Shown in pieces: positions 33,398 to 51,500 of a stretch of 64,000 nt of DNA. A program made the position numbers and the translations under genes. This DNA is from a virus. The first letter of the stretch is position 1. Every line of letters starts with the position of its first letter. The stretch is taken from IMG/VR virus record IMGVR_UViG_3300034104_003795, positions 209,998 through 273,997 of that record. One strand, written 5' to 3'. Below the pieces are notes generated by a model, which worked only from the letters and a program-made list of their open reading frames with translations, was not told where the DNA came from and did no database searches.

Positions 33398-36313
33398 TTA
33401 AGAATCAAAAAATATTCCTAAAATTTGATTTAATGGTGCGAATGCACCTGTTAATTTGTAAGTGTTACCACCATATACGAATACAATACCTTCGTTTGGT
33501 ACAATCTTATCAAATCCACCCAAAGCATTTAAACGTTCTAACTCTAATTTTAATTTTGCAATCTTTTTAGGGTCACCACTTGCTTTTACTTGTTGAATTG
33601 TAGATTCCAAACGAGCTACCATTTGTCTTTTGGCACTATCAGGATTTGCTGTAAGTACCGAACTCATAAATGATAATACATCTGCACCAACTCCTAAAAA
33701 TATCTCCTCAAATCTCATTAGATTTTGCTTTGATATCTTTTGTTGGTCTTGTTTATCAGTTTGTTCAGCCCAAGCTCTTAATTTAGTATCTTGTATTGTG
33801 TTAATACGGAAACTCTTGTCACCAAAAGCCCATCTCTTAACCAATCCTATTTTTTCTTGTGTATCTAATTTTTTTGCATTCTTTTCAACAAACTTAGTCC
33901 ACCATGCTTGATGATAATCCGCTACTCCATCCGAATCACTTAATGTAAATTCAGATTGAAGTTTACTAATCATAGAAATATACTTTCCTTGTAATTTAGA
34001 AAGATGTTCTGATTTAGGTAACTTATTCATTGGTGGGCCTTGAATTGTGTATTTAGATTGTACGTGCGCATTTACTTGCTTAATCATACCGCCTAATATA
34101 GTTGCCGCTTGCTGATTCTCACCTACGATAGTACCATCAATATCGTAATCAAAAGTACCATGAAACACTAATAGCGGTTGATTGTAGGGGATTACATTTA
34201 CGGAGGTTGGATATATTACTTCCAAATTCATAAACGAACTACCATCCTTAAATATCTTTTTACGTTGAGGTTCTGATAGAGCTGCAATTGCTTTAGATAA
34301 ATCCTGCATAGCGAAATTGTAAGCATCTGTTAATCCACCTCTACCGGCAAATTTAGCAGCCACTTGTCCTATTGTCATAGCACCTTCGCCTTTGTTCTTT
34401 AAGTGTGATTTGTTACGAGCTGCAACTAATCTACCATTTACCCAACTAACTGCTAATGCTTGTCCATCGGTCTTCTCTCTTGCCAATTCTAAATCACCAT
34501 TCAATGCTCTTACCACAATTTGTTTAAGGTCACCAAATGTTAAACCCATCTCAATATCAAATGGATGTGCCATATGTCCATACGCACCACCTTCCAAAAT
34601 TAAACTCTCACTTAAAGATTCTTTTTTAACTTTTTTAAGTTGTGCCATTATTTTATCTAACTCTGCTCTTACTTTTAATTGAGCAGGTGAATTTGGCATC
34701 ATTTTAAGTGCTTTAAGAAATAATCTATCTCTTTCTCTTTCTAACTCTTTTACTCCTTCATTGAATGGAATTTCTATTTTAGAAAGTTTACTATAATAAT
34801 TTGGGTCTTCGTATAAATGGTCTAATGCAATTTCTTTTGCTATATTAACATCGGTTGTATGTTCTCTTTCAACGGCGTATCCTTTTATGAATTCGTTCTT
34901 TAAAGTTTGTGGACTGATATTATGGTGTTTAGCAATATCTTTTAAGGTCATACCCTTTGCTAATCCACCAGGTATCTGGTCTTCTTTTACCGGTTGATAT
35001 TCTTCACTATCATCTTTATTCAATTTAGATTTTAATTTCTTAACATCTTTCGGATTTGGTGCACCATTAATATATCCACCTGGTAAACTTAAACCAATAC
35101 CAGCCCCACCACCTAATCCCATTTCATCTAATATTTGAGATTCTATTTCATCCATAATTTCATTTATGTCTTGTTTTGAAATTATTTGAGGTTTTTGGTT
35201 TTTAGGAAGTTCCCAAAATCTTTTAGGTTTTTCCAATGGAGTATCTCTATTGGTTTCTTCCCAATCCTCAACGGTATGTGGGTCATCGGCAGGATTTAAT
35301 GTACTTTGTACTACATTATTAACTTTATAATAAGCCTTTCTAAATTGTGTTTCCGTATCTTTTGATTTACCCTTACCTCTCATAGCATCTGCTTTTGGAG
35401 TATGCAATTGTATATATCCACCCTGATTAAACCAAGGTTCCGGTTTTGTTACGTTTAATAATCTAATTTTCCCATCAGGAATATATCCAGTATCAGGCTC
35501 ACCTGCATCTGCTGCGTATCCGCCCATACCAGTGCTTTCTTTTAGGTTTTCTTTTTTAGGAATTCTAAAAGTTACTGCTTTCTTACCATTGATTGTTGGC
35601 ATTCCCCATTCATCCTCACCTATTGATTTAACAACTACTTTTTTATTTTTGAATTTACCCATTAACAAAGTATCACCAACTTTTACGTTTAGTTTAATTT
35701 CTTCGTTAATAGATTCTTTTAATTTTTTTAATTTAAGAGTTATCAGTTTGAATACTTGGTCATCAAACTTTGGATATGCTTTTGTAAAGTTTTTCTTTCT
35801 ATCGGCAGCACTACCCGCGCTTAACCAATAACGAACATCAGTTCCGCTAATTGGATTGGGTTGAGCAGGTGCTGCATAAACGTATCCTCTATCTAAATAC
35901 CCAGTATCTACTTTACCTTTATATTGTTTAAAGTATTTACCGCTTAAACGAGATGCATCTTTTTCACCTACCACCGTTATAAATCCAGTAGTATCTGAAT
36001 CAAACTTATTAAGTATCTCTTCTGGAGCATAAGGATTTTTAATATTGACTATTTTGTTTGATGGGATACCAAACATTGTTGTCATTATTGCTTTCTTTTC
36101 CTTAAAATTAAATGGAGATTTTTTTGAATCGGTAACATTAGAAGTTCCGATATATACGCTATCTTTACCGAATTTTTTAACCAAATGGTCATAGGTTGCG
36201 TAGTGACCTTTATGAAATGGTTGAAAGCGGCCAGAATAGACAACAACTACTTTGTCCATTCCTGCCGCTTCTCCCAATATTGTTTCTACTAAAAATTTTG
36301 CTAATCCCTTCAT
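33398..36313 (-). CDS. Nucleotidyltransferase (NMNAT-like) fused to a KxDG ligase-like domain
   Basis: 971 residues from ATG 36313 (an upstream TTG is unlikely). The N-terminal domain (about 19-210) has GRFQPFHKGH (residues 28-37, an H-x-G-H site) and ISGTDVR near 156, both signatures of NMN/pantetheine-phosphate-type adenylyltransferases. The middle is a linker with DEIESQILDEMGLGGGAG. The C-terminal domain (about 590-971) has EKTDGQALAVSWVNGRLVAARNK, a K-x-D-G motif near 613 as in ATP-dependent ligases and capping enzymes, and MNLEVIYP near 697 in the place of ligase motif III. Substrate unknown; NAD metabolism or RNA/DNA end repair are possible. An alternative start at ATG 36259 would begin exactly at the nucleotidyltransferase fold. 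Confidence 0.75.
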   Translation of the reverse strand: MKGLAKFLVETILGEAAGMDKVVVVYSGRFQPFHKGHYATYDHLVKKFGKDSVYIGTSNVTDSKKSPFNFKEKKAIMTTMFGIPSNKIVNIKNPYAPEEILNKFDSDTTGFITVVGEKDASRLSGKYFKQYKGKVDTGYLDRGYVYAAPAQPNPISGTDVRYWLSAGSAADRKKNFTKAYPKFDDQVFKLITLKLKKLKESINEEIKLNVKVGDTLLMGKFKNKKVVVKSIGEDEWGMPTINGKKAVTFRIPKKENLKESTGMGGYAADAGEPDTGYIPDGKIRLLNVTKPEPWFNQGGYIQLHTPKADAMRGKGKSKDTETQFRKAYYKVNNVVQSTLNPADDPHTVEDWEETNRDTPLEKPKRFWELPKNQKPQIISKQDINEIMDEIESQILDEMGLGGGAGIGLSLPGGYINGAPNPKDVKKLKSKLNKDDSEEYQPVKEDQIPGGLAKGMTLKDIAKHHNISPQTLKNEFIKGYAVEREHTTDVNIAKEIALDHLYEDPNYYSKLSKIEIPFNEGVKELERERDRLFLKALKMMPNSPAQLKVRAELDKIMAQLKKVKKESLSESLILEGGAYGHMAHPFDIEMGLTFGDLKQIVVRALNGDLELAREKTDGQALAVSWVNGRLVAARNKSHLKNKGEGAMTIGQVAAKFAGRGGLTDAYNFAMQDLSKAIAALSEPQRKKIFKDGSSFMNLEVIYPTSVNVIPYNQPLLVFHGTFDYDIDGTIVGENQQAATILGGMIKQVNAHVQSKYTIQGPPMNKLPKSEHLSKLQGKYISMISKLQSEFTLSDSDGVADYHQAWWTKFVEKNAKKLDTQEKIGLVKRWAFGDKSFRINTIQDTKLRAWAEQTDKQDQQKISKQNLMRFEEIFLGVGADVLSFMSSVLTANPDSAKRQMVARLESTIQQVKASGDPKKIAKLKLELERLNALGGFDKIVPNEGIVFVYGGNTYKLTGAFAPLNQILGIFFDS

Positions 36314-36318
36314 ATCAT

Positions 36319-36326
36319 ATAAATAT
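36319..36326 (-). promoter_or_regulatory. Candidate late promoter motif, start-proximal
   Basis: Sense context CCAATATTTATATGATATGAAGG. It ends only five bases before ATG 36313, so if it is a promoter the transcript would start inside the first codons, which favours initiation at ATG 36259 (preceded by GGGAG and AGGA). The other copies sit 17-42 bases from a start, with one at 145. Confidence 0.4.
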
Positions 36327-36351
36327 TGGAGATTATTGTTTTGCAAAATTA

Positions 36352-36714
36352 TTAAGCCAATCCACCTTGTTGTTCAGCTAGTTGCTTTCTAGTTGGTGCA
36401 CCTGGTTGATATTGAATAACACCTTCTTTAAGGTTAATTCTCATTTGTGGATATTTTTCATCCAATTCATCAATTGTTTGCTTGATTTCTTCAGTTATTA
36501 GTTGAAACTCAACTTCTGATTTTGCAAGAACTTCATCAAGTTTAACAAGTTCAGCTTGTATTTCTTTTTTTCTAAGATATATTTGACCGAAATCGTTTAT
36601 AAAGATATTTTGTTTTTGATTAAGTTGTTCTAACTTTTCTTTAACAGAATCATCTATTTTTACAGATTCAATCTCAATACTTTGTTTTTGTGGAATGTTA
36701 TCTAATTCACTCAT
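36352..36714 (-). CDS. Small coiled-coil protein, paralogue of the gene at 41261-41539
   Basis: 120 residues, helical and charged to about residue 90 (VKEKLEQLNQKQNIFINDFG, LDEVLAKSEVEFQLITEE), then a short C-terminal beta motif: LDEKYPQMRINLKEGVIQYQ. The same ending (LQKKYPNGEINLADGTISYE) closes the 92-residue protein at 41261-41539, and both begin MS with a similar coiled coil, so they are paralogues. One lies on each side of the four-gene heptose operon. A late-type promoter motif precedes each. Function unknown. Confidence 0.75.
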   Translation of the reverse strand: MSELDNIPQKQSIEIESVKIDDSVKEKLEQLNQKQNIFINDFGQIYLRKKEIQAELVKLDEVLAKSEVEFQLITEEIKQTIDELDEKYPQMRINLKEGVIQYQPGAPTRKQLAEQQGGLA

Positions 36715-36741
36715 AAGTTTGTTTTTTATTGTTTTGTATAT

Positions 36742-36749
36742 ATAAGTAT
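36742..36749 (-). promoter_or_regulatory. Candidate late promoter motif, C variant (sense ATACTTAT)
   Basis: Sense context GAATATACTTATATATACAAAAC, 28 bases before the coiled-coil gene at 36714 and directly behind the stop of the kinase gene. It shares at least 17 consecutive bases with the copy at 33371-33378. Confidence 0.55.
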
Positions 36750-36757
36750 ATTCTTTT

Positions 36758-37510
36758 TTATTTTTTAAATACCGAAACTCCTTTTTCTTTTACAACTTCT
36801 CCGGCACAATAATTAGCCCAATCAATAGATTCTTCTACATTATTAGAATCCAAATACCTGGATACAAATCCGGCTACAAATGTATCACCCGCTCCACTTA
36901 CATCGGCATTTTGAATTCTTTTAGTTCCAATTATCTTACCTCTATAACTTGCTCCCCTACCGTCCAACGTAATGATACATTTATTATATAACCAATCAGT
37001 ATCTCTAATAATAGAATCATTATTTTGAGCTTCAAATCTGTTTATTTTTATAAAGGATGTGTTTTTACACCAATCACCTAAATGCTTTTTGGTATCTACT
37101 ATCGTAAATTTGGCCATAGATGATATCTTATCAATATCTTCTTCGGTTAGGAATCCCTTACAATAATCCGATATAACAACCGCATCATATTTTACCAAAT
37201 CCGGCAAATCGTAGATATCAATTCTATTTGTAGTATCATTTTCATCAACTCGCAAATATAATTCATTTGTATCTTTGTTTACATATCGTGTTTTAGTAAT
37301 ATTACCTTTATCAAAATATGTATCAACATCCAATCCCATAGCTTCTAAATTAGATGCTGTGTTGCCCGCCATTCCTTTACTCCAAACTTTTAATTCATCT
37401 ATTGGTAAGAAAACTGGTCCATTTCCTTCTGGAGATTTTCTACTTGTTATGCCATACCAAAAAATATCGGTACAAACCTCTCCAATAACTAAAACTTTAT
37501 ACTTACGCAT
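36758..37510 (-). CDS. PfkB-family sugar kinase, HldE kinase-domain-like (heptose-7-phosphate kinase)
   Basis: 250 residues. The family phosphorylates D-glycero-D-manno-heptose 7-phosphate at C1, a step towards ADP-heptose. It shows the HldE-type N-terminus (VIGEVCTDIFWYGITSRKSPEG, compare DRYWYGPTSRISPEAP in HldE), the PfkB glycine motif GMAGNTASNLEAMG, the DYCKGFL segment, and the C-terminal PfkB active site VSGAGDTFVAGF. It is shorter than the HldE kinase domain (about 315 residues), with loss in the middle. It overlaps the nucleotidyltransferase gene by eight bases. HldE is usually one bifunctional protein; here its two activities are separate genes. The phosphorylated sugar is inferred from the partner genes. 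Confidence 0.8.
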   Translation of the reverse strand: MRKYKVLVIGEVCTDIFWYGITSRKSPEGNGPVFLPIDELKVWSKGMAGNTASNLEAMGLDVDTYFDKGNITKTRYVNKDTNELYLRVDENDTTNRIDIYDLPDLVKYDAVVISDYCKGFLTEEDIDKISSMAKFTIVDTKKHLGDWCKNTSFIKINRFEAQNNDSIIRDTDWLYNKCIITLDGRGASYRGKIIGTKRIQNADVSGAGDTFVAGFVSRYLDSNNVEESIDWANYCAGEVVKEKGVSVFKK

Positions 37511-37892
37511 TATGTATTAAATTTGAAGTACTGAATCCTTCTATTTTTTCAAAGTATTTAATTTCTTTGGCAAATTCTTTACCTATTATTTTTTTATTCT
37601 TATACTCATCACCAATTACAAAAAAATCAGGATTGTATCTTTTAATTTGTTCTTCTAATTGTTTATCACTTCCAAATATTACAACTATATCAACACCTTC
37701 TATTTGCATTAAGTTAAACACTCTTTGACCTTCGGTATGAAAAGGTCTATCAGTTCCTTTTAGTTCTTTTACTCTAATATCAGAATCAATACCAATAACC
37801 AATTGGTCACCTAATGATTTTGCGTATTCAATTAGTTTAAAATGACCGTAGTGTAAAATATCAAAACAACCGTTAATCCAAACTTTTTTCAT
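37503..37892 (-). CDS. HldE/RfaE2-like nucleotidyltransferase (ADP-heptose synthase type)
   Basis: 129 residues. The family transfers AMP to heptose 1-phosphate to give ADP-heptose. It has the cytidylyltransferase site GCFDILHYGH (H-x-G-H), GIDSDIRVKELKGTDRPF, matching the LKGPxRP segment of HldE, and the C-terminal GFSTSNLI motif. The central IEGVDIVVIFGSDKQLEEQI also follows the HldE pattern. It is slightly shorter than stand-alone RfaE2/HldC proteins (about 160 residues). It overlaps both neighbours (eight bases with the kinase, one with the heptosyltransferase), so the three are translated together. A CDP-glycerol-type enzyme is the main alternative but the LKG motif and kinase partner favour ADP-heptose. 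Confidence 0.85.
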   Translation of the reverse strand: MKKVWINGCFDILHYGHFKLIEYAKSLGDQLVIGIDSDIRVKELKGTDRPFHTEGQRVFNLMQIEGVDIVVIFGSDKQLEEQIKRYNPDFFVIGDEYKNKKIIGKEFAKEIKYFEKIEGFSTSNLIHNA

Positions 37893-39049
37893 TATAAGAA
37901 TTTTTCCAACTCTTTTATTACCATTTCAGATGTAATACTTTTAGTACATTCAAATTGTCTTTCAGTATCTTTATGGTCAGGACACCAATTCCAATCACCG
38001 GCATCCAATTTAACTCTATTAAAACATCCTTCACATTTTCCGTCAGGTGCACCAATTCTAATACAATCTTCCATCTCTGCCCATCTATAAGAGAATCCAC
38101 TTATTAATACCGTTGGTACATCTAATGCCCAACTCAACCAACTCAAACCACTACCAATACCAATAAATGCTTTTGATTTTTTCATTTCATCCATTACTAA
38201 TTCAATTGGACCGTTTGGATGATGAATTACTCCTATTGGTAATTTATTTCCCATATAGTTATCACCTTCTTTAGAAAGTAATTTTACTAAATAACCCCTA
38301 CCAATCAACCAATCAACTACTTCTTGCCAACCGGTTGGATTGTTCCAAAATTTAGATTGCGCAGTACCATAAGTTGCAATACAAACCTGTTTAATATCAT
38401 TATCTATTTTTACAGGTCTTTGTTTTACTTTTGGTTTTATTTCTTTAAATTCTAACCCAAGTATATCAGAACACATTTTTTGCATTGTTACTGATTTTGG
38501 GTCTGCTGGATTTTTGAATCCATTTACCGAACCATTTTCATTATAAAATAGTCCAACCGAATACATCGCATATAAATTAGGAACAGGTGTACCAGGTTGT
38601 ACAAACTCAATATCAGGATATTCTCCTAAAAACATATCGTTCATAAAGGTAGATACTATTACTTCACATTTATGCTGCTTTTTAAATTCTTGTACATAAG
38701 GTATCCAGGCTAAACTATCTCCCAATGCTTTTGAATCCATTGCAATATAAACTCTCTTACCTTCGGCGTTAAATACCATACTATACCATTCTACGCCATT
38801 TTCGTAAATAACAATTTTCCATTCAATAAAATACTGAATACTACATCTACACCAACAATTGTTATCTATGCTTGTTGTATAGCAAATTTGACCGGTTTTA
38901 TTATTAATAAAATCAACTTTATAATTTGCCTTCTTTGGTCCTTTAATTTCTACAAAAGGACCATTAATAAAATGTATAAGTACATTGTTATTTATTTCCC
39001 TAATGCTTTTATTATTTTTTTTAAGATTATCGTAAATCATTAACTCCAA
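37892..39049 (-). CDS. Protein O-heptosyltransferase, autotransporter (TibC/Aah, BAHT) type
   Basis: 385 residues. This family transfers heptose from ADP-heptose to serines of bacterial autotransporter adhesins. The N-terminal beta domain (FINGPFVEIKGPKKANYKVDF, then WKIVIYENG) is the part that separates BAHT enzymes from LPS heptosyltransferases. The GT-B core has MDSKALGDSLAWIPYVQEF (the GDxLA motif) and IGIGSGLSWLSWALDVPTVLISGF for nucleotide-sugar binding. Near the C-terminus four cysteines (339, 342, 356, 368) match the iron-finger motif known in this family. It overlaps the gene before by ten bases. Substrate is inferred: the phage's own Ser/Thr-rich fibre proteins are the obvious candidates. 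Confidence 0.85.
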   Translation of the reverse strand: MELMIYDNLKKNNKSIREINNNVLIHFINGPFVEIKGPKKANYKVDFINNKTGQICYTTSIDNNCWCRCSIQYFIEWKIVIYENGVEWYSMVFNAEGKRVYIAMDSKALGDSLAWIPYVQEFKKQHKCEVIVSTFMNDMFLGEYPDIEFVQPGTPVPNLYAMYSVGLFYNENGSVNGFKNPADPKSVTMQKMCSDILGLEFKEIKPKVKQRPVKIDNDIKQVCIATYGTAQSKFWNNPTGWQEVVDWLIGRGYLVKLLSKEGDNYMGNKLPIGVIHHPNGPIELVMDEMKKSKAFIGIGSGLSWLSWALDVPTVLISGFSYRWAEMEDCIRIGAPDGKCEGCFNRVKLDAGDWNWCPDHKDTERQFECTKSITSEMVIKELEKFL

Positions 39050-41208
39050 GTTTTTACTGTTTGGTCTATAAGAGAATATCCTTCGGATTGTTTACAATAT
39101 ACTTTATTTGTTGTATATCTAAGCTTTGGTTCTTTGTAAAACACATCAGTAAGCCATAAATCAAATCCTTCCCACGGCGTATCATTGAATCTATCAATCC
39201 ACCATTGTTTAGTTCGATTTGGTATTAAGTATGCATGTGCTAAATCTTGATTTGCTGCAGTTTTACTGAATAGTTCATCAACTTTTTCTTTATTTCTAGA
39301 ACTATTATTTGCCAATCCAACATAGTAAACATCATCTCTTTCCGATATAAAACAAGCCTTATTTACTATATCCACAAATTCTTCTAAACCGGTATAAATA
39401 AATGCATCTGCTTCAAATATCAAAGTATAATCATATTCATCGCTCATTGTTTCCAAAGCCTTTCTATGAGCAGAAAAACATCCATAATGTCTGCCAGTTA
39501 AAGGTCCTAATCCATTTCCAAAATTACCAGGTTTATCTGATATATGTTCTGGTCTTTTACAATGTTCGGATGGTGGAGTTTGGTCATATGGTTTGTTTAC
39601 CATTGGTAGATAATCAATACCATATTTTGATAATTGTTTTAAAGATGCTCTACTCACTCTTTCTCTAACATCATCTGGTCTAGTTAATAGGTGTCTAACT
39701 TGTATTTTTGGTTTTCTACGAATAAATGAACGAAATCCTTCTTTAAATTGCCCATAGAAGAATTCATTTGCCGCTTGTGTAACTCCGTGAAATACACCAT
39801 AATCATCACCACTTACAATTCCACCTGGTTTAACTTTATTATACCAAAATTGTAAATCTTCTTTTAATGCATCGTAACTATGACCAGCATCTAACATTAT
39901 ATAATCTATACTTCCATTTGCAAACTGATTAGATGCATTTTTAGAAGTATCTTTAATCATATTGATATTATCATAGTTATCTGATAATATTGTGTTATCA
40001 ATAAATTCATAAAAGATATCACCATTAAATGAACCAACAATTGTTTGATGTATATCTTCATCATCAGTTCCTTTCCAAGTATCTACCGTTGTGAACTTTA
40101 TGTTCTTTTTAGATTCTCTAATTTTTTCTGCTAAATAATTTGTTGATTTACCAAACCATGCACCTACTTCTACAAACACATCATCATTTCCCGCACTTTC
40201 TACAACCTCATCATAAAGTTCTCTATATGCAAACCAACCAGGAATTTCATTAAATTCAGGTTGTAATTTTTCTAAAATAATTCTTTTGGTAAGTTTTAAA
40301 TCATCATTGATATAAGTTACCAATGAGTTATTATCGTATGTATCCAAATATGTATGTAAATTTCTAAAGATACATGGTAATTTATACGATAGTGCTTCTT
40401 TTATAGAAAGTGGATTTAATTCCAATATAGATGAAAAGTAAAAAAGGTCACATGCTGCATAGAATGTATCAACATCATCACGCTCTCCCCATATTACACA
40501 ATTTTCAGGTTTATGTTTCATTAAAGGTAACCAATAATGTTCATAGTTCATAGCTTGGTTTCCAACAAAGTGAAACTTAATTTTATATTTTTCTAATTGC
40601 CTAGCTATTGAAAATATTTCACCCTGATTTTTACCAGGTGAAAATAATCCAACCATTAAAACATGTTTCCATTCAGAATCTAATCCCAATTGTTGTTTTG
40701 CAATTTGTTTATCAAAAACATATTCACTAATAGGATATTCCCATAGAGTAGTTTCAACTCCTAAATTCGCTTCATCAAACTTTTGTTTACTCCATTCAGA
40801 AACCAAAACATAACGGTCTGGTTGATATATAATTTCAGATGGTGTTGTAAACGAACCATGTGTTGTTGCCAAAATAAAATAAGACCTATCCTTTGTAAAG
40901 ATACTATCTAAAACGTAGGTTGGTAAATCAAATTGTGGTATTTCTTGGAAATGTATAACATCTGGATTAAATTTTTCAATTACATCCAATATCTTAGTCT
41001 TATCCTCACCCAATGTGTGAACTACTGCTAATTTTTTTATTCTATTTTTTTGAACAACAAACGCATCACCGCCGCTGTTGTTTATTTCAACCACTTCAAT
41101 ATCGAAATCATTAACAAAATGTTCGATTTGTTTATAGGTGTATTGGGGCTGTCCTCCTGTTGATAAGTGGGGACAGACGTAAAGTAACTTTTTTCTTTCT
41201 GTTTTCAT
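39040..41208 (-). CDS. Trimodular GT-B glycosyltransferase / SAM methyltransferase / GT25-like glycosyltransferase
   Basis: 722 residues. Part 1 (about 1-305) is a GT-B glycosyltransferase: LLYVCPHLSTGGQPQYTYK, the GLFSPGKNQGEI motif, and ELNPLSIKEALSYKLPCIF, the donor-site E-x7-E region. Part 2 (about 325-485) is a class I methyltransferase with VFVEVGAWFGKSTNYLAEKI (motif I), TVDTWKGTD, and IDYIMLDAGHSYDALKEDLQFW plus GGIVSGDDY, like the cephalosporin hydroxylase/Methyltransf_24 group. Part 3 (about 500-722) resembles LPS glycosyltransferase family 25: GCFSAHRKALETM and LIFEADAFIY in the place of the usual GCFLSH and EDDA motifs. First gene of the heptose operon, behind a host-like promoter. 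Probably extends and methylates a glycan. Confidence 0.85.
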   Translation of the reverse strand: MKTERKKLLYVCPHLSTGGQPQYTYKQIEHFVNDFDIEVVEINNSGGDAFVVQKNRIKKLAVVHTLGEDKTKILDVIEKFNPDVIHFQEIPQFDLPTYVLDSIFTKDRSYFILATTHGSFTTPSEIIYQPDRYVLVSEWSKQKFDEANLGVETTLWEYPISEYVFDKQIAKQQLGLDSEWKHVLMVGLFSPGKNQGEIFSIARQLEKYKIKFHFVGNQAMNYEHYWLPLMKHKPENCVIWGERDDVDTFYAACDLFYFSSILELNPLSIKEALSYKLPCIFRNLHTYLDTYDNNSLVTYINDDLKLTKRIILEKLQPEFNEIPGWFAYRELYDEVVESAGNDDVFVEVGAWFGKSTNYLAEKIRESKKNIKFTTVDTWKGTDDEDIHQTIVGSFNGDIFYEFIDNTILSDNYDNINMIKDTSKNASNQFANGSIDYIMLDAGHSYDALKEDLQFWYNKVKPGGIVSGDDYGVFHGVTQAANEFFYGQFKEGFRSFIRRKPKIQVRHLLTRPDDVRERVSRASLKQLSKYGIDYLPMVNKPYDQTPPSEHCKRPEHISDKPGNFGNGLGPLTGRHYGCFSAHRKALETMSDEYDYTLIFEADAFIYTGLEEFVDIVNKACFISERDDVYYVGLANNSSRNKEKVDELFSKTAANQDLAHAYLIPNRTKQWWIDRFNDTPWEGFDLWLTDVFYKEPKLRYTTNKVYCKQSEGYSLIDQTVKTWS

Positions 41209-41222
41209 TCTAAAAATAATAT

Positions 41223-41254
41223 CAAATATACAAAATTTTTCTTAATCTACCAAA
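41223..41254 (-). promoter_or_regulatory. Host-like promoter TTTG-N20-TATATTTG for the heptose operon
   Basis: TTTG (41254-41251), exactly 20 bases, then TATATTTG (41230-41223), 14 bases before ATG 41208. The spacer ends in TTTTG, like the methyltransferase promoter. Because the four downstream genes overlap or abut, this one promoter would drive the whole ADP-heptose and glycosyltransferase set. Confidence 0.65.
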
Positions 41255-41260
41255 TTTATT

Positions 41261-41539
41261 TTAGGATTCATAAGAAATAGTACCATCCGCTAGGTTTATT
41301 TCACCATTAGGATACTTTTTTTGTAAATCTGATATGCTGTTTTCTAGTTTGAGTGCAAGTAAATCAAATTTTTCTTCGGTTTCTTTTTTAATAGCTTCGA
41401 ATTTTTCGATTTCAGTTTTAAACTCTCTTATTTTAAAACTTATTTCTCCCACTTGAAATATCAACATACTAAGCTCTGACTGAGTATTGTTTATGTAATC
41501 TAGTGTGTCTTGTGATAATTTTTCTTTAATTTGTGACAT
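41261..41539 (-). CDS. Small coiled-coil protein, paralogue of the gene at 36352-36714
   Basis: 92 residues. A coiled coil (LSMLIFQVGEISFKIREF, EKFEAIKKETEEKFDLLALK) ends in LQKKYPNGEINLADGTISYE, matching LDEKYPQMRINLKEGVIQYQ at the end of the 120-residue protein on the other side of the heptose operon. A late-type motif lies 17 bases before the start. No function can be named. Confidence 0.75.
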   Translation of the reverse strand: MSQIKEKLSQDTLDYINNTQSELSMLIFQVGEISFKIREFKTEIEKFEAIKKETEEKFDLLALKLENSISDLQKKYPNGEINLADGTISYES

Positions 41540-41555
41540 AATTTATTGTTTGTAT

Positions 41556-41563
41556 ATAAATAT
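41556..41563 (-). promoter_or_regulatory. Candidate late promoter motif (sense ATATTTAT)
   Basis: Sense context ATATATATTTATATACAAAC, 17 bases upstream of ATG 41539. The right flank (TATATACAAA) is shared with the C-variant copies at 33371 and 36742, extending the consensus for this subgroup. Confidence 0.55.
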
Positions 41564-41575
41564 ATATATTTTAAA

Positions 41576-43573
41576 TTATTCAAAAACAGCAGATGCACAA
41601 TTTCTACATATAGTTTCGTATGATTGTTTTATCTTTTGGATATGTTCTTCATTACCCCAAAAATCTCTTAATTCTTGTGTCTGTAAGTTTCCAAATTTAA
41701 AATCAAAATCATAATCGTTACAACATAGGAAAGCATCACCATTTGCGTTTACATGCACCCATCCGATTGGTCTACCACCAACTTCTCTACCATTACCACA
41801 ACCGATAACTTTTTTACCTTCATTGTTTTTCATTAAGTTTCGTTGTATCGCCGGACCGTTTGTTATAACTTCATCCAATAATCCCGCTCTATCAATAAGG
41901 TAAGGTACTGTGAATATATTTACACCAGGAAATAATTCTCTTGCTTTTTTCTCTTGCTGAACTAATTCTCCACTTTGTACATTTAAGTCAATATCCGATG
42001 GAAATTGCTCTCCTTTCTCTAACCATCCACCCTTATTACCAAACGATAATTCATGTACACCATTTATCTGAATAGAGAACGCCTTTCTTTGAACCATTTC
42101 AGGTAATTGCTCTACTGCGTATTTAATGTTTGATATTAATTTATCAAATTGTTTTATATTAATACCACTTCGTTTACTCCAAGTTTCTGCATCAAATGCC
42201 GGAGTATTTAAACATATACCACTTAAACAATCCTGATATTCTTTTAATATATCAACTTTTTCAGGTGTTAATGGAATACCATTTGAAAGTACCATTGTTA
42301 CCAATTTATACTTTCTACATATTTTTAATATTTCTTCAAAATGTGGATACAAAAGAACTTCGTTGTAATGTGCTGTATAGAATCCATTGAATGATTTACT
42401 AACCAATCCATCCGGTCTTTCTCTTTCATCTATAAGATTTTTTATAATTTTTTCAAATAGTTCCGGACTCATTACCGCTTTACCTTCGGTTGGATTGCCT
42501 TTATATTTTACAGGACAATACCAACACTTTGCATTACATACGCCATATGGGTCTATTTGTAAGTTTGTAATTTTATATTTGTTAAAATCATTTTTAATTT
42601 TACTCTCATCAGTTTGTTCAATTAAAATAGATTTATTTGCAGTTTCACATATTTCTTTCCAATAATAAGAAGAAGCATATTTTTCACTTATATTTAATGG
42701 TTCGTTGTATGGAAGTTTATCAGTAAAAGCTCCTTTATAAAATAAACCCTTTGAATACGAATGTATATGAGTTGAATCCGCTACAACTCCTGCATTGTGT
42801 AGTATAGGATATTTTTCTACTTCCGAAATATCACCAGTTACCCACCCAAAATCCAATCGTTCATCTACTATCGTTTCATGTCCCGCTAACCAAGCATTCC
42901 AAAGAAGTGCCCACATTCCCGCAGTCCATTTTTGTATTGGATAATCATATTCACTTTTCTTAACATGCAAATGTTCAGTATCACAAAAATATTTATATAG
43001 ATTTATACTATCGGTTTCTACTTTATCCCAAAATTCATATGTTGTGTTTTTAACAATATATTGTGCTCCACCTGAATTGTTATTTAGTAGTTTGGGTATT
43101 AACGGGTCTATTCCAACTATTTCACACATCTTTTTATAAATGTGTTCACCCTTACCTATTATATAATCATAATTTATATAAAATTTAGTATTAGATAAGT
43201 ACCAGCTATTACCCCTTATCATATCATCAAATTTGGGTGTCTTTGTCAAAACTATATCCGAATCATGTAAAAATAAAACATCATCTTGTATTTCAGTTCT
43301 TGCTGCAATATGTTGCTTCATCAAATTGAAATAAATAGATGGTTGATATCCTTTATCAGTTCTAGTATCATTATAAAAGAAAAAACGAACACTATTATAA
43401 TGTAGCATCAATTTTCGCCATTCGTCAGGAATTACACCATTTTCTATTCCACAAACTATATCAATGTAGTTTGGGTTTACTCCCATTTTTTTAAAGTTAT
43501 TAATTAAAACTTCAACTTGCCAAGTATAATAAGTGATTGCCGGTTGGCAACATATATAACGTAATTTTTTCAT
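41576..43573 (-). CDS. Glycosyltransferase fused to a radical SAM/SPASM enzyme
   Basis: 665 residues. The N-terminal 300 residues look like a glycosyltransferase with an acidic DxD site in LHDSDIVLT (Asp104 and Asp106) and acceptor-side motifs (NNNSGGAQYIV, HNAGV). The second half is a radical SAM enzyme: CNAKCWYCP gives the C-x3-C-x2-C cluster (Cys346, 350, 353), followed by the usual strand-helix repeats. A C-terminal SPASM-like region holds WVHVNANGDAFLCCND and a final CRNC (656, 659), which would bind auxiliary iron-sulfur clusters. SPASM enzymes modify peptides or sugars by radical chemistry. The gene lies directly behind the Thr-tract structural gene. The combined protein probably builds or alters a glycan or peptide on that protein; substrate is inferred. 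Confidence 0.85.
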   Translation of the reverse strand: MKKLRYICCQPAITYYTWQVEVLINNFKKMGVNPNYIDIVCGIENGVIPDEWRKLMLHYNSVRFFFYNDTRTDKGYQPSIYFNLMKQHIAARTEIQDDVLFLHDSDIVLTKTPKFDDMIRGNSWYLSNTKFYINYDYIIGKGEHIYKKMCEIVGIDPLIPKLLNNNSGGAQYIVKNTTYEFWDKVETDSINLYKYFCDTEHLHVKKSEYDYPIQKWTAGMWALLWNAWLAGHETIVDERLDFGWVTGDISEVEKYPILHNAGVVADSTHIHSYSKGLFYKGAFTDKLPYNEPLNISEKYASSYYWKEICETANKSILIEQTDESKIKNDFNKYKITNLQIDPYGVCNAKCWYCPVKYKGNPTEGKAVMSPELFEKIIKNLIDERERPDGLVSKSFNGFYTAHYNEVLLYPHFEEILKICRKYKLVTMVLSNGIPLTPEKVDILKEYQDCLSGICLNTPAFDAETWSKRSGINIKQFDKLISNIKYAVEQLPEMVQRKAFSIQINGVHELSFGNKGGWLEKGEQFPSDIDLNVQSGELVQQEKKARELFPGVNIFTVPYLIDRAGLLDEVITNGPAIQRNLMKNNEGKKVIGCGNGREVGGRPIGWVHVNANGDAFLCCNDYDFDFKFGNLQTQELRDFWGNEEHIQKIKQSYETICRNCASAVFE

Positions 43574-43596
43574 AACTTTTAAAATTAATTTTTATT

Positions 43597-45045
43597 TTAC
43601 AAACACAATGCACAATTAACTCCAATTGCAGAAGGAGTAAACAATATATAATTATTTGGTCCAGGATAAGCTCCTAATCCAACCACAGACCACGTTTCTC
43701 CAGCATAGGATACGCAACCAGGACTACTTCCCGCAATAGCCTCAAGTGTATATTGAGCTCCGGTATATGCTCCTGCACCAGTACAAGGTTCATAATCCCA
43801 ATATTCATATACAACAGCCGATGTTGTTGTTGTGGTTGGTGCAGATGGACACGAACTACAATTCGTTCCTACATAACTAGAACCATCACCCAAATCAATA
43901 TCAAATGAAGGACCAAATGTAATACCAGTTAATCTTACACAAACATATGCGGTAGCAGTTTCAAATACACTATTAACTACCTGGTCAACGGTAAATCTAA
44001 CAACACCGGCACTTATAGCAGTATCACAGTATTCAGCGCTAAAATAGAAATAAGATGGCCCTGCGGTTGTGGTTGTTGTAGTTGTTGGTGCAGCTGTGGT
44101 TGTTGTAGTTGTTAGCGGTGTTTCGCAACCATACGCTATACATTCCTCATATGATGTGTAAATACCATTTCCAGTTCCAACATTTGTACATGTACCAAGA
44201 ATACAATCCCAATCCAAAGATGCAGCTGCTGTTGTAGTTGTAGTTGTTGTAGGCGCTTCCGTAGTTGTAGTTGTTGTAGGCGCTTCCGTAGTTGTAGTTG
44301 TTGTTGCAGCTTCCGTTGTAGTTGTAGTAGTAGCTGCTTCCGTTGTAGTTGTAGTAGTAGCTGCTTCCGTTGTAGTTGTAGTAGTAGCTGCTTCCGTAGT
44401 TGTAGTTGTAGTTGGTGCCGCGGTTGTTGTAGTTGGTGCCGCAGTTGTTGTAGTTGTGGTTGTAGTTGTAGTTGTGGTTGTAGTTGTGGTTGTAGTTGTG
44501 GTTGTAGTTGTGGTTGTTGTAACAGAAAGACAAGTACCCTTATCGTTTAATACACCATCATTACTTATAATATAATAGTTTGTTCCATCTGAATAATATC
44601 CATTTGATGCAATCGTAGTTAATCCACTATTTGTAAAAAGTTTTGTACTTTCGGTTAGTGTTACTCCCCCATACGAATAATACGTTGTTGGGGAAAGTGC
44701 AAAATCATAACAAGAGTTTCCAGCAGAAGATGCATCATATCCTAAACTAAATGAAGATGGTGCTAATGTTGTAGTAGTTGGTGCGTTAGTTGTAGTTGTA
44801 GTTGTGGTTGTTGTAGTTGGTGTAAATTCACTAGTACCCATACAATCACTACTACCACCTTGTAAAAGTTCTATGGTTGCACCAGCTGGTGCTGCTATAC
44901 TACCGGGTTGTGCTTCTATCACTACCGAATTTAAAGTTTCACTTAAAAAAATAGATGGTCCAGTAAAGCCTTCACACTCTAACCAAGACACATTTCCACT
45001 AGTACTACTAGCTAACGTTACTCTATATATGTTTACAGTTGGCAT
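43597..45045 (-). CDS. Thr-tract (mucin-like) structural protein with Cys modules
   Basis: 482 residues. It begins with a beta domain (MPTVNIYRVTLASS, WLECEGFTGPSIFL), then alternates globular parts with long threonine tracts (about 76-92, 175-275, 315-330). The globular parts include SCYDFALSPTTYYSYGG ending in DKGTCL, a WDCILGTCTNVGTG...YEECIAYGC module, and two CxxC-containing beta modules near the C-terminus. Thr runs punctuated by Ala/Pro/Glu resemble mucin linkers and are typical of O-glycosylated stalks. I associate this architecture with tail-associated proteins of Bacteroidota phages. The gene lies 10 bases after the chaperone-like gene and 23 before the glycosyltransferase/radical SAM gene, which makes it the prime candidate substrate. 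Confidence 0.8.
   Translation of the reverse strand: MPTVNIYRVTLASSTSGNVSWLECEGFTGPSIFLSETLNSVVIEAQPGSIAAPAGATIELLQGGSSDCMGTSEFTPTTTTTTTTTTNAPTTTTLAPSSFSLGYDASSAGNSCYDFALSPTTYYSYGGVTLTESTKLFTNSGLTTIASNGYYSDGTNYYIISNDGVLNDKGTCLSVTTTTTTTTTTTTTTTTTTTTTTTTTTAAPTTTTAAPTTTTTTEAATTTTTTEAATTTTTTEAATTTTTTEAATTTTTTEAPTTTTTTEAPTTTTTTTAAASLDWDCILGTCTNVGTGNGIYTSYEECIAYGCETPLTTTTTTAAPTTTTTTTAGPSYFYFSAEYCDTAISAGVVRFTVDQVVNSVFETATAYVCVRLTGITFGPSFDIDLGDGSSYVGTNCSSCPSAPTTTTTSAVVYEYWDYEPCTGAGAYTGAQYTLEAIAGSSPGCVSYAGETWSVVGLGAYPGPNNYILFTPSAIGVNCALCL
44224..44520 (-). repeat. Threonine-codon tandem repeat (sense ACN runs, hexamer-like)
   Basis: Seen as plus-strand runs of gttgta/gttgtg, broken at regular spacing by gcttcc (Glu-Ala). 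The unit coding T6-E-A or T6-E-A/P recurs six to seven times. Because units are multiples of three, slippage or recombination here changes tract length without a frameshift. Two other reading frames also stay open, which explains artefact ORFs in this place. Confidence 0.85.
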
Positions 45046-45055
45046 TTATTATTAA

Positions 45056-45514
45056 TTAAAAAGGTATTTGACCTAATATTTCAGTTGGCCATTTTTCTCT
45101 TATTTGAACCAAATTAGTTATATCTGAAAAATCAATATTTGTCAAATCTCTTAATTCTTGTTTTTTTGTAACTATTTCTTGAATTAATGTTTGATTTCCA
45201 GTTTCCAATACCCTCATATATTGTAAATCCAAATCAGGAAATAATTCACTCCTTTTGTATCTCACATAATTTAAAAATAATTCTTTTGCCTTTTCTAAAT
45301 TTAAAGATGGAATCGCAGTTGAACCATTCTCATCATCAAAATTAAAATCATAACAAAAATTAAATGGATAATCAATTTGAGAATCATCATACATAAAAAC
45401 ATAATTTGAATTCAATGGAATTACATTTTTGATTATAAAATCAATAGTTTCTTCATTTGATGATGTCCATTTGATTTCACCATTTTTTTCACTTATAATT
45501 ATTTTTGGTTTCAT
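45056..45514 (-). CDS. Tail fibre assembly chaperone-like protein (putative)
   Basis: 152 residues. The first half is beta-rich (IIISEKNGEIKWTSS, PFNFCYDFNFDDENG). The second half is helical, with AKELFLNYVRYKRSELFPDLDLQYMRVLE then IVTKKQELRDLTNIDFSDI and WPTEI, a pattern of the phage tail-fibre or tail assembly chaperone type, in which KQELRDL and a WP end are typical. Its place between a 2,479-residue tail protein and the Thr-tract protein suits a chaperone for one of them. The match is by motif only. Confidence 0.5.
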   Translation of the reverse strand: MKPKIIISEKNGEIKWTSSNEETIDFIIKNVIPLNSNYVFMYDDSQIDYPFNFCYDFNFDDENGSTAIPSLNLEKAKELFLNYVRYKRSELFPDLDLQYMRVLETGNQTLIQEIVTKKQELRDLTNIDFSDITNLVQIREKWPTEILGQIPF

Positions 45515-45529
45515 AAATTATTTATTTTT

Positions 45530-48500
45530 TTATCTTGATAATACCACAAAATCAACAATTTCAGGTGACTGATGTCCTCCTAGATTACCACCGATATATG
45601 TTGTTGCAATACCAGGACTACTATGATTAGGTCTTTCTATTCTAAAAGAAAATCCAGTAGTACTTTTTCCAGTAATTACAGCAATACTTCCAACTTCCTG
45701 AGTAGCGTATGTTAAATTTGATGTTGTAAATAAAATAATATAATCATTGGAATCTAATGCGGTTGTAAATACGATATCATAGATATTGAATGACCCTATA
45801 CTAAATGAGGTACTAATATTATAACGATTTAGAATAGTATATTTTGTAGTATCAGTAATTCCTCCACCATTATATCTAATTGTTCCAAACGCTTTTACTG
45901 CTGGTGGGTATCCATATCCATTACTAAATCTGGATATTGCTCTATCCACCATTAAACTACCCGTAATTTCATTTGAGAAACTATAAGAACCACTTATACC
46001 ATCTCTTACTCTTAAATACTTATCATCTGCTAAAACGGCTTGGAAACCACCACCGTTTACAACAGTACCCGCGGATACCGTTTTTATTGTTATGGTTCCA
46101 GTAGAAGATAAAACAAAACTAGTTTCTGCTTCCGAATCAATTCCAAATGGCGGATATGATGGTAATGATGTATCTATACTTTGGTTTTGCACAACAACTC
46201 TTAAAGTTAAATAATATGTTACACCTTGTTGTAAATCCGCAATTAATGAAAATTTAGTCGCTGGTAGCTCCATTTGGGCTGCAGCCGCAAAGTAATATGT
46301 ATCCCAACCAAATCCATTCCAAACCTGATAAGTTTGTATGCTCCCATTTGCATATGCCGTTGCGTAATTTGATTGCCCAACAAATTCGGTAAAAAATTGC
46401 GGTGCATGGCCTGTTTTAGTTAGTTGTAAATTTACGTTTATACCAGCTGCCGCATCACCAGTAGCCCTTGCATAGCTGGAACCGTTAAATGGCATTGTGT
46501 AAGTTATAATGTGTTGTCCAGATGCTCCAGCGGTGAATGAACCTCCAGATGATGGTATTATATAATAGTCATAGGAAATAAGTCCGTAAGATGGAGGAGC
46601 ATATGTTCCATCATTTGGAACTGCATTAGTTTGTAATGACGAAGTTGATACAGTTGGTAAAGTTGCAGAAGAATATGTTACACCAGTTGGGGATGGTAGT
46701 GTTAATTGTGTATTTGCAAAGAATCTTAAACTACCAGAATCATCAAATACGGCAATAGATTCGGATGGGTCTGAATACAATTGTATATTTTGATTTGCTG
46801 ATATTATAGAACCTTCTCCGATTGTCCATCCACCAATCTGTCCATCATTTGAGCTAATTGAACCCTGAATGGTTAAATCTTCTCCATTCCAAATCAATGA
46901 ACCAGATGTACCTATTAAAGATACTTTTGGTTGAGATGCATCGAATCCTATAAAAATACCAGGATTATTAAATCCTTGCACTTGTGATTCCGTTACCCAA
47001 CTACCAGGACCTATACTAGAACTTATTTGTCCGATTGAAATGTATGGATTTGCATTTGAACCACTTTCATTTGCGTTAAGAACAATAAGTGCGTTTGCAC
47101 CCTTTGCACCAATATTGATACTTTTATCAACATATTGCTCAACTGCAAATAATACATCAGTTGCTACCGAACTAAATTGTGCACCAAATGTAGTCCAGTT
47201 TGCGTTTGGTGGACTGCCCCAAATTGTACCAAGTTGTCCATTCTTACTCGTATCATTTACCAAATAATAGGTACTACCTTGTTTTACAATATCTCTCCTT
47301 TCAGTTGTATGGAAATAATTTGTACTGGTACTAAAGAGACCTCTATATACTACACCGGCTCCGTTCGCTCCGTTTGTTCCACTTACGCCAGATGTACCAC
47401 TTACACCAGATGTACCTGCTGCTGCATATACTGACCAACTATTAGTTGCGTTTGGTGGATATCCTGTATCAATATTAGTATTATTTGTTGAAGTATGTGA
47501 AACTCCACAAATATAACTTGCTCCACCATATGTTACGGTATCATCTTCGTAATATGTTGTTGCAGTTTGCCAAGCTCCTCTAAAAGAACCTTCTGGTATT
47601 CCAGGTTGTCTTTGTCTAATACTACCAACTATCGTTAATTGGTCTCCATCCCAAAACATGCCTTTGCCAGATGTACCAGTTGTTTTAATTGAAAAACGTC
47701 CTGTTGTACCATTTGTACCATCTTCATATAATCCCAAGAAAACACCAGGTCTATTATATCCAATAATTCCTGGAGTTGTCAATGATGTTCCACTTGTACC
47801 CGCAGTTCCTTGTGTACCGGTTTGACCAATTGCAATGTATGGGTCTGGTCTTCCACCTGCAATTACAATATTTGCAAATGCACCACTACCATCTTTAGTA
47901 CCAACATTAATTGTATTCTTAACATATGATTCTTGGAATATTGCAATTTGTGCTGCAACAAAGAATTCTTCATTTCCTAAATACTGCCAATATGCATTAT
48001 CACTTGTTGTACCGGTTGGTGCTTGAATTCCTGCACCCGTACCAGGACCACTTTCTTGAATTGCACCATAGTATTGTGTTACGTTTCCATTTGTAGCAGG
48101 GTCTGGATGTATTACGGCATCTCTACGATTACCACTTATATCTGAACCTATGTAATCTATGTCATTTTTCCAAATTCCTCTCATCACAATTCCAGGTCCA
48201 GTATTTCCTTCATATTGAACCGATAACGATTGTGTTTTATATAAAAAATCTCTACCTTCGCAATCAATCTGATATACGATAAATGCGGTTTGATTTACTT
48301 CAGGATTTAACCATTGAGTAATTCCACCCATAACCGCGGGAGAACCACTTACAAATGAACCAGCGGTTAAACTTCCAGATAAAGTAATGTGCGCAGATTT
48401 TGCGTAAATACTTACTCTACATTTTTCTTTCCATCCGGCTTCACCATACATATCAGTATGAGTTTCTTGCCCTGCAATTAAAGAAGCACTATTAACTAGT

Positions 48501-51500
48501 TCAACATCACCTCTATAAACATTTATAGTTGTTGGTGTTAAATTGTATTCAATTTCACCAGATACACGATATATAATTGATGAGTTTTCATTTGTTAATG
48601 TTGCATTATATGGTGCAGGTGCAGTTATTTGAGAACTAAATGATTGTGAATAGAATTCAGATTTTCTACCATTTTCAAAATCAACTTTATAAACAACCGT
48701 TCCCGCAGTATTTACCGCCGGTGCTACCCATCCAGAAACATTTCCTATTTCAGCAGGATTTCCTAATAATCTATTCTGTGGATTTACAGTAATGTATGAT
48801 GACTTTGAATGTATAGATGCAGAATAATATCCTAAATTTCCAATTGGTAAACCGGAATTAGGTCCATATTCATAATATACAACTTGCGAAGAAACATACG
48901 AAGATGTGTGTATTAAAGGTACTCCTGCTTTAAATGCTCTAATTTGTGTTCCACTACCGGTAAAGGCAGTTTCCCATAGAGAAACTTGAATAGAAGTGTT
49001 TTCGTTTGTTACGTTTGCAGTAAAAGAATCCGCTCCAGCTTTTACACCAAATATAGTAATCTCATCAACCGCTCGTATTATATCAGATGCAGAACCATCT
49101 CTCATTTCAACTCTGAAAACTGCAGTTTCGCCTGCAGAAGTTGCATCGGAAGAACCAATGCTGATTTGGTCAGTAGTACTTATACCATAACCCAAATCTC
49201 CATATGTTGCAGAATCTGGATCGTACTTAAACCATTGATAAAATGCCTGTGAACTTGTTATATTAATTGGTGTTGCAGTAAACGTTATATCTCCAACAGG
49301 TGAAATAACTACCGTATCACCATCAAAGTTTACAGTGTTTGTACTTGTTGATAGTTTAACTGTTCTTGCTTTTACAGCATCCGAATTTTTAGTGAAACTT
49401 TGTGTTGCAAATAAATTAACCGAACCAGTTCTATGTCCCGGTAATAAAGAATATGGATATACTCTTAAATTATAGAAAGCACTTGCCGATACATACGGTG
49501 GTAAGAAGTTTGTATAATTCGCACTACCGATTCTCGTTGGTGTTGTAGAATTTGGAGATGAAATGGATGCCGTTTGTATGTTACTTCCAGTAATCGATTG
49601 GAAATACCAAGTACCTCTTTGTTGAGAACTCGTATATATTAGATACTCATTTCCTTCCTTTAATTGTATTGATGTACTAGCCGGTGCATATGTTCTTATA
49701 TATCCAGTTTCAAATGCGGATAATATTGCATTTTGTGGACTGATTAATATTTCAATTGGTGGTGCCCCATCAACCGCTTTGGTAAAGTTTTGAACTAAAC
49801 TTTGTGTATATTTTGATGAAGTGAAATATGGATGAATTAAGAGGTCATAAGTTAAACTCGCACTTAACTCAGTCATATTATTAATTCCAGTTAGTAATAA
49901 CGATGAGGTATTGTTAAAATCAACGGAACCGGTTGATATCATTGATTGTGTCACCGTATTTAACCAGAAATTACCAGGTTGCTTTGATGAACTAAATGCC
50001 AAATACCTTGCACCTTGTTTTAATTTCAATTCAGTATTTGCCGGTGTATATGTTGCAACATCTCCCTTTGCATTTGCATTTAATGTTACATTGGAAGGTG
50101 TCAATTCAAATACTATACTTTCATCACCAGGTTTACCTTCAGGTACAATAGTAAATGTTTTATCAATACTAATTTCGGTTAATGTGTAAGGTTCGGTATA
50201 AGTAAATGTTGCAACTAATACTTTGCTTTGAGATAACGGACTTCCAATAAACGCAGATGGTAATCTTGCAGGTAAACTTCTACCAGCTTCATCCGCTGCA
50301 ACAATTGATATATTGGAATCTTTACTTTGACTAACCCAATACAACCAATATTCTGGTGCAAAATCTGTATTAATTGACATTGATGGATATACCAAAATAG
50401 ATGCCGATATTGGATTCTCATTTGTACCTCTTAAATAAAACGATGCAGTTGCAGATGCGGATACCGGTCTAAAATCAGTTTCATTTCTAAAATTAATTGT
50501 AAAAGTATCGGTATTGTATGTCACAACCGGTGTATCAAGACCATCTTGCAAATCTTCTAAAATTTGTGATGCTAAAACCGATGCCGATGTATTAAATGCC
50601 CAATCCGATGCCGCTGATGCCGAAGATATTAAATAAATTGTTCTTCTCTTATCAATTGAATCTCTATTAAATGTTGCATTAAAATTAATTTCACCAGTAC
50701 CCAACGTACCTTTTGTCAATCCTTGAACAAATCCACTAGCGGATGCATATTGTAAATTTACAAATTTTTCAAAAGGAGCAGAACCGCTAAGTACGTGAAG
50801 TTGTATTAAATTCCACCCTCTATCTGGTCTTGAACCACTATAAAGTTCAATATCATTTATACCATCAATTCTTACTGCCTGAATTTCTAAAGATGCAGTA
50901 CTACTATTTCTAATTTGAGTTCCTCTATAAGGTCTAATAATATGATTAACTCCACCAAACCCATCTAATACTGCGGTGATAGTTACCGTATCGGTTACGC
51001 CTTCACACTCTCCCGTAAATGTTACCAACTGAACATCTATATCACTTCTACTACCAGTAAAATTCCCAACAGTTAAAACCGGTATATCTGGATTTGTTAA
51101 ATTTAATGTACCAGGAAATGTACCACCAGCATATTGCGATGCCGATAAAACATTTCCAAAGAAATCAATAGAAGATGATGTGAAGTTTACAGAACCAGTT
51201 AATAAAGTTTTTTGAATATTAAATGCAATTGCAGTTGGTGGTATAGGTTGCGAACCCGAATCAAATTGAAAATATAAAGAAGTTGGATTTAAACTTAATT
51301 TTTTCTCAATTCTTTGAATATTTCCACCATCAAATTCTTTAGATGCTTCTACATTAACCGGAATGTAATTACCATTTATATCATAAAATTTAAAAAGATA
51401 ATCAAATCTTTCAGATACCAAACTTCTAGGTACTGATTGTACCACCGTTAATTCGTTAGGTGAGAATGATGTTTCTTGAGATGCTTTAATACTAATATCT

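Follow-up and report, generated by a model that had tools for sequence, protein, structure and literature searches.

A phage glycosyltransferase fused to a radical SAM enzyme and its candidate poly-threonine acceptor

Phage virion glycosylation is already known. Glycosyltransferases encoded by mycobacteriophages Che8, Corndog and Myrna glycosylate capsid and tail proteins (Freeman et al. 2023, via PMC11256854 and PMC12363180). As described in those two articles, these systems resemble the enzyme proposed here in that a phage glycosyltransferase modifies the phage's own particle; the same accounts report no radical SAM half, and the acceptors they name are the capsid and the tail tube, not a stand-alone protein with threonine tracts. 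Among radical SAM enzymes, the closest solved sequence is BtrN (PDB 4M7T), a twitch-type dehydrogenase of butirosin synthesis in which four cysteines ligate the single auxiliary 4Fe-4S cluster (PMC9012708). The heptosyltransferases TibC and Aah (BAHT family; eLife 03714), whose usual substrates are autotransporters, are kin of a neighbouring gene and not part of the fusion.

The locus considered here lies in a window of 64,000 nucleotides, the whole stretch of DNA analysed, taken from a 273,997-bp virus record (IMGVR_UViG_3300034104_003795, positions 209,998 to 273,997). It encodes a glycosyltransferase fused to a radical SAM enzyme (Table 1). Our main reading, given a probability of roughly 0.6, is that this enzyme may build a glycan on a phage-particle protein in two steps: the glycosyltransferase would O-glycosylate the threonine tracts encoded by the adjoining gene and the radical SAM half would alter the sugar. 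The radical SAM step and the poly-threonine link would be the features added to what is known of virion glycosylation. A search of the open literature, with most subscription papers outside it, found no description of a phage fusion of this kind, of a link between phrog_4417 and poly-threonine, or of poly-threonine acceptor tails.

Table 1. Features of the fusion locus (window coordinates)
Feature	Position	Strand	Basis
Heptose kinase, HldE domain I-like	36758..37510	-	TIGR02198 E 2e-26, below cut-off
Heptose-1-P nucleotidyltransferase, HldE domain II-like	37503..37892	-	TIGR02199 E 4e-32, below cut-off
TibC-like O-heptosyltransferase (BAHT family)	37892..39049	-	TIGR04414 271.6 bits, cut-off 200; TibC 4rap E 2e-53
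GT1 + methyltransferase + GT25-like protein, 722 aa, lineage core	39040..41208	-	Pfam
Glycosyltransferase-radical SAM fusion gene, 665 aa	41576..43573	-	Single open frame; Pfam, PHROG, AlphaFold2
Twitch-type auxiliary cluster domain, Cys592/617/656/659	41597..41800	-	PF13186; four invariant Cys
Radical SAM core, residues 342-489	42107..42550	-	PF04055; invariant Cys of CNAKCWYC, 346-353
N-terminal GT-A glycosyltransferase domain, residues ~1-312 (phrog_4417)	42638..43573	-	PHROG profile; glycogenin/UGGT/LARGE1 fold matches
HNAG...FYK block (His259-Lys280), which may supply a third metal ligand and a phosphate contact	42734..42799	-	His259 and Lys280 in 87/88 relatives
DxD motif, Asp104-Ser-Asp106	43256..43264	-	Asp104 and Asp106 in 88/88 aligned relatives
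Thr-tract protein, 482 aa, proposed acceptor	43597..45045	-	No other gene of the record has tracts of 6 or more Thr codons
Poly-Thr tracts (ACN repeats) in the Thr-tract gene	44066..44817	-	37 overlapping matches of at least 6 codons, all those in the 273,997-bp record; none in 100 shuffles of the window

The fusion gene and its two halves

The first-pass annotation had described one uninterrupted frame joining the two enzymes, and the open reading frame, which starts with ATG and has no internal stop, fills its interval exactly. From residue 290 to 345 the linker region offers no in-frame ATG, GTG or TTG at which translation of the second half could begin separately, and two overlapping genes in place of one protein were rejected. 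Structure prediction, proposed earlier as a check, gave two confident domains for the whole protein (AlphaFold2 with 39 related sequences as input; mean pLDDT 91.2, pTM 0.69). When this model was compared with the PDB by Foldseek, the glycosyltransferase side matched the GT-A enzymes UGGT, glycogenin, LARGE1 and XXYLT1, and the other side, where absence of a radical SAM fold would have told against the annotation, matched DesII, BtrN, SuiB, BlsE and anSME. The fusion is the sole PF04055 match within the record.

The glycosyltransferase half belongs with phrog_4417, whose PHROG function entry is unknown (residues 5-310 align to 2-290 of 293, E 3e-63), and homologues from cultured phages score above 500 bits against the same profile. 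Searches of Pfam and NCBIfam gave no family above cut-off, and a sequence search of the PDB gave no match. The DxD motif claimed earlier is present at Asp104/106, and by motif and predicted fold this half is a GT-A glycosyltransferase with a DxD of the metal-binding type. The HNAG...K block near its end resembles, as we take it, the metal/phosphate motif that GT8 enzymes have at the C-terminus. More than 500 viral contig stretches and 74 phage records proved to contain glycosyltransferases of the phrog_4417 type. Members elsewhere are fused to methyltransferases (L053, L054, L070) or, by a weak match, to a GT2 (L097), and because such fusions exist besides the radical SAM one, the C-terminus of the family appears to act as a slot for glycan-tailoring enzymes.

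The radical SAM cysteines (Cys346, Cys350 and Cys353 of CNAKCWYC) stand where they had been placed, and PF04055 matches residues 342-489 with E 1.1e-10 (42.3 bits against a curated cut-off of 29.5). Modelled alone, this half reached a pLDDT of 90.7 and a pTM of 0.88, and Foldseek again returned DesII, BtrN and SuiB. By motif, Pfam match and predicted partial TIM-barrel fold, it is a member of the radical SAM superfamily. The annotation of the C-terminal cysteines as a SPASM set holds in part: SPASM PF13186 matches residues 604-659 above its curated cut-off (E 4.3e-10), but the seven-cysteine motif that defines SPASM enzymes with two auxiliary clusters (CX9-15GX4C-CX2CX5CX3C-C; PMC6231123) fits 0 of 24 radical SAM relatives. 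Invariant among the 24 are the three core cysteines and four auxiliary ones (592, 617, 656 and 659); a single relative lacks Cys618. A full SPASM enzyme was rejected on this count despite the Pfam match, and since only a four-cysteine pattern is invariant, the tail is better labelled radical SAM/twitch, BtrN-like, with one predicted auxiliary cluster.

BtrN shares the CxxxCWYC core and the four-cysteine auxiliary pattern, is the best match of this half in a profile search of the PDB (E 1e-11, the second being the peptide epimerase YydG/EpeE at E 0.007) and is among its best fold matches. It differs in its low identity in the fold alignment (about 15%), its small soluble aminocyclitol substrate and the lack of a glycosyltransferase fusion. 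DesII (PDB 8HZV), a radical SAM enzyme with a nucleotide-sugar substrate, is the best fold match by E-value but has a TM-score of 0.38-0.50, 14% identity and another domain set. SuiB, anSME and SkfB follow closely behind DesII and BtrN, and because these peptide enzymes lie within two orders of magnitude, the Foldseek ranking does not separate sugar-acting from peptide-acting enzymes and cannot alone decide the substrate. The best NCBIfam match, spiro-SPASM TIGR04321, scored 43 bits, far under its cut-off of 250, which places this half outside that family.

A search for the same fusion elsewhere recovered it from further IMG/VR contigs, namely L049 and L002-L010, some of the latter being near copies. 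In L012-L017 each half is encoded by its own gene, the two adjoining, while L011 and L019 have one more gene in between (Mannosyl_trans3 in L011). Independent contigs thus share the fusion, and its halves adjoin as genes in sister lineages; the assembly error raised as a possible source of the joined frame was therefore rejected. Fused and adjacent forms make two separate groups in the glycosyltransferase tree and are sisters in the radical SAM tree, where bacterial fusions fall in a different clade. These bacterial proteins, from three Deltaproteobacteria MAGs (L196-L198), likewise carry a glycosyltransferase and a related radical SAM/twitch domain in one chain; they differ in that the glycosyltransferase is an unrelated PF11397 GlcNAc-type enzyme, the fusion is independent and no threonine-tract gene was seen. 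In other viral contigs, relatives of the radical SAM half adjoin GT2, sulfotransferase, NAD-epimerase and carbamoyltransferase genes. Another clade, made up of L021-L028 and L035, lacks an evident glycan context, and inspection by eye of the neighbourhoods of bacterial relatives L200-L203 revealed no informative glycan genes.

Threonine tracts, insertion site and adjoining heptose genes

The fusion gene had been described as following directly on a threonine-tract gene, and that gene indeed ends 23 bp ahead of the fusion start. A threonine run of at least five residues occurs in the gene immediately upstream (-1) of the glycosyltransferase in 42 of 63 viral loci (67%), against 33 of 573 other genes of those loci (6%); Fisher's test gives p 1.7e-29, a value that overstates independence because the viral loci are related. 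The gene immediately downstream has such a run in 1 of 65 cases. Runs of at least six occur at -1 in 36/63, at -2 in 15/61 and downstream in nearly none. Runs of other residues beside the glycosyltransferase show no such excess in the same loci, glycine runs being present in two cases only. Three loci with the fusion or the gene pair (L009, L012, L013) have an upstream virion-like gene without a long threonine run.

Homologues of the glycosyltransferase half (25-41% identity) were found by tblastn in the 74 phage records, from phages of Lactobacillus, Enterococcus, Staphylococcus, Lactococcus, Arcanobacterium and Chryseobacterium; none of these records contains the fusion. Twenty were inspected, picked for diversity and not at random, and in 14 of them the annotated gene directly upstream of the glycosyltransferase has a threonine run of at least five. 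Such runs occur, among others, in the major tail protein of phiFL1A and in two capsid proteins, that of Enterococcus phage 4995_1 and the PF03864 one of R9.1. Three more (9183, VPE25, bIL285) have a threonine-rich stretch in another frame or directly after a stop codon, two (521B, LP65) have a threonine-rich tail with short runs only, and in LT985583 no threonine-rich stretch was seen.

Four phages, SA2 (Staphylococcus), TPWB06 (Arcanobacterium), and 9183 and VPE25 (both Enterococcus), have a major tail or capsid gene that stops shortly ahead of a long, out-of-frame threonine-rich stretch. Stretches of this kind lie at 2149-2428 in L220, 2160-2424 in L223, 2770-2890 in L219 and about 1196-1500 in L237. 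In SA2 and TPWB06 the gene end before the stretch is at CCC-TAA. In all four the glycosyltransferase gene comes directly next. The arrangement looks as if programmed frameshifting added a poly-threonine tail to part of the tail or capsid copies. In Lactococcus prophage bIL285 (L235 1446-1500), the capsid stop is followed by in-frame NDKTTTTTTRHD and then another stop, which is compatible with stop-codon readthrough giving a threonine tail.

Within the phage's own lineage, the interval from the tail-fibre-like gene to the GT1-methyltransferase gene was scored for both genes: both are present in 3 distinct loci, both are absent from 35, and neither occurs singly; the window is a further case of both. 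Since lineage loci hold always both or neither, the threonine-tract gene and the fusion gene appear to behave as one cassette. The functional tie between the two is strong because the tracts are unique in the genome, long threonine runs are enriched beside the glycosyltransferase, the genes are present or absent together, and the pairing recurs in cultured phages. The placement of the fusion in a structural region, as first annotated, fits the tail-fibre-like gene just upstream and the terminase, portal and major head genes downstream; it is less apt further upstream, where primase- and SbcCD-like genes lie.

On the other side of the fusion stands a heptose module. Its central gene is, by sequence, a clear member of the BAHT heptosyltransferases. 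TibC has a catalytic Asp110 and iron-finger cysteines 339, 342, 358 and 370 (PMC4358343); the product's LGD aligns with Asp110, and its CEGC, WCP and ECT align with the four iron-finger cysteines. In 63-64 of 67 loci the heptosyltransferase gene has the GT1-methyltransferase gene as its neighbour, and this pair, often with HldE-like genes, was observed in about 220 viral contig stretches. GmhA was sought in the whole record and not found, and a complete ADP-heptose pathway on the phage was therefore rejected. A threonine-tract gene is present in 4 of the 67 heptosyltransferase loci. Because the module exists without the cassette it was not assigned to the tracts; it is a separate, older module, core to the lineage, that probably acts on another protein. 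The tail-fibre-like protein (45530-52969) is perhaps the substrate of the heptosyltransferase.

Proposed function and rival explanations

In the proposed mechanism, the GT-A half would transfer a sugar from a nucleotide sugar onto the threonine tracts of the upstream-encoded protein, giving a mucin-like coat. The radical SAM half, with its one predicted auxiliary 4Fe-4S cluster, would remove a hydrogen from one carbon of the sugar, whether already transferred or still on the donor, and would oxidise or invert that carbon in the manner of BtrN; the fusion would keep this tailoring step at the site of sugar transfer. The cassette would have been inserted into a slot after the tail-fibre-like gene of the lineage. 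That the glycosyltransferase acts on the threonine tracts we regard as very probable from gene order and predicted fold; if it does so, the radical SAM half would probably act on the sugar, judged by sequence and by analogy. The first-pass annotation had left open an unusual sugar or a backbone or side-chain modification. Sugar is favoured over peptide because BtrN is the closest solved relative, a related enzyme is independently fused to a PF11397 glycosyltransferase, and relatives adjoin glycan genes. Radical oxidation or epimerisation of the sugar is the favoured chemistry given the tailoring slot and the likeness to BtrN. Sequence similarity among SPASM/twitch enzymes is a poor guide to reaction (PMC6231123).

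Several other readings were weighed. Twitch/SPASM-type radical SAM enzymes commonly act on peptides, and here the radical SAM half might epimerise, dehydrogenate or cross-link the threonines before the glycosyltransferase acts, so that the tract would be matured like a ribosomal natural product. A substrate protein encoded beside the enzyme, the YydG/EpeE match and the nearness of SuiB, anSME and SkfB in fold all fit such a course. It is nevertheless unlikely: BtrN outdoes YydG by eight orders of magnitude in E-value, a Pfam search of the fusion gave no leader-peptide binding domain, relatives of the radical SAM half sit in phage glycan clusters without threonine-tract genes, and the tailoring slot otherwise holds methyltransferases and glycosyltransferases. 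Two further readings start from the adjoining glycan genes. The heptosyltransferase, GT1-methyltransferase and HldE-like genes would suit an enzyme that modifies a polysaccharide or lipid of the host or the phage, its position beside the threonine-tract gene being incidental. This is improbable in view of the positional enrichment, the co-insertion and the recurrence in unrelated cultured phages, and those glycan genes occur without the fusion in nearly all relatives. Alternatively, the heptose module itself could glycosylate the tracts and the fusion merely tailor the heptose, since relatives of TibC heptosylate many repeats at sites of the Ser/Thr type (PMC4358343) and the phage encodes ADP-heptose-like genes. 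The rarity of threonine-tract genes at heptosyltransferase loci weakens this assignment, and the glycosyltransferase adjoins threonine tracts in phages with no heptosyltransferase found nearby, which together make it highly improbable.

If the reading of the fusion as an O-glycosylating and sugar-altering enzyme is right, a function would be assigned to phrog_4417, a phage family of unknown function, and the long threonine runs that end many phage capsid and tail proteins would be explained as acceptors of a sugar coat. The fusion would then be, as far as the search could tell, the first case of a virus particle modified by radical chemistry, and its products could be protein-borne sugars that lie beyond the reach of ordinary dehydrogenases or epimerases. 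More tentatively, at slightly less than even odds, the virus would build a glycan or glycopeptide coat on its own particle with radical SAM chemistry, and phrog_4417 would be a widespread, dedicated system for glycosylating poly-threonine tails with exchangeable tailoring partners (radical SAM enzymes, methyltransferases and glycosyltransferases). Particle glycosylation in these phages becomes a testable question, one that affects antibody recognition and probably adsorption.

Other observations

In the three Deltaproteobacteria MAGs (L196 5749-8670, L197 and L198), DUF3540 and PAAR-like genes, parts of a phage-tail-like secretion machine, immediately precede the PF11397-radical SAM gene, which suggests modification of the tip or an effector of that machine. 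Viral contigs L029, L031 and L033 carry two tandem radical SAM genes of the same family beside GT2, sulfotransferase and NAD-epimerase genes and may represent a glycan cluster with two radical steps. The closest cultured homologue of the glycosyltransferase half is in a Chryseobacterium phage. Gene starts around the cassette (window 36346-45514) have no Shine-Dalgarno sequence, with A/T-rich stretches ahead of the start codons; such starts would presumably fit a Bacteroidota host. A frame of 3951 codons (3-11855, minus strand) runs off the window start and encodes a giant phage protein. Adjoining the terminase gene is a 982-aa protein (33398-36346) with an N-terminal cytidylyltransferase-like domain and DUF5661; the protein is kept in the lineage and has a variable middle part.
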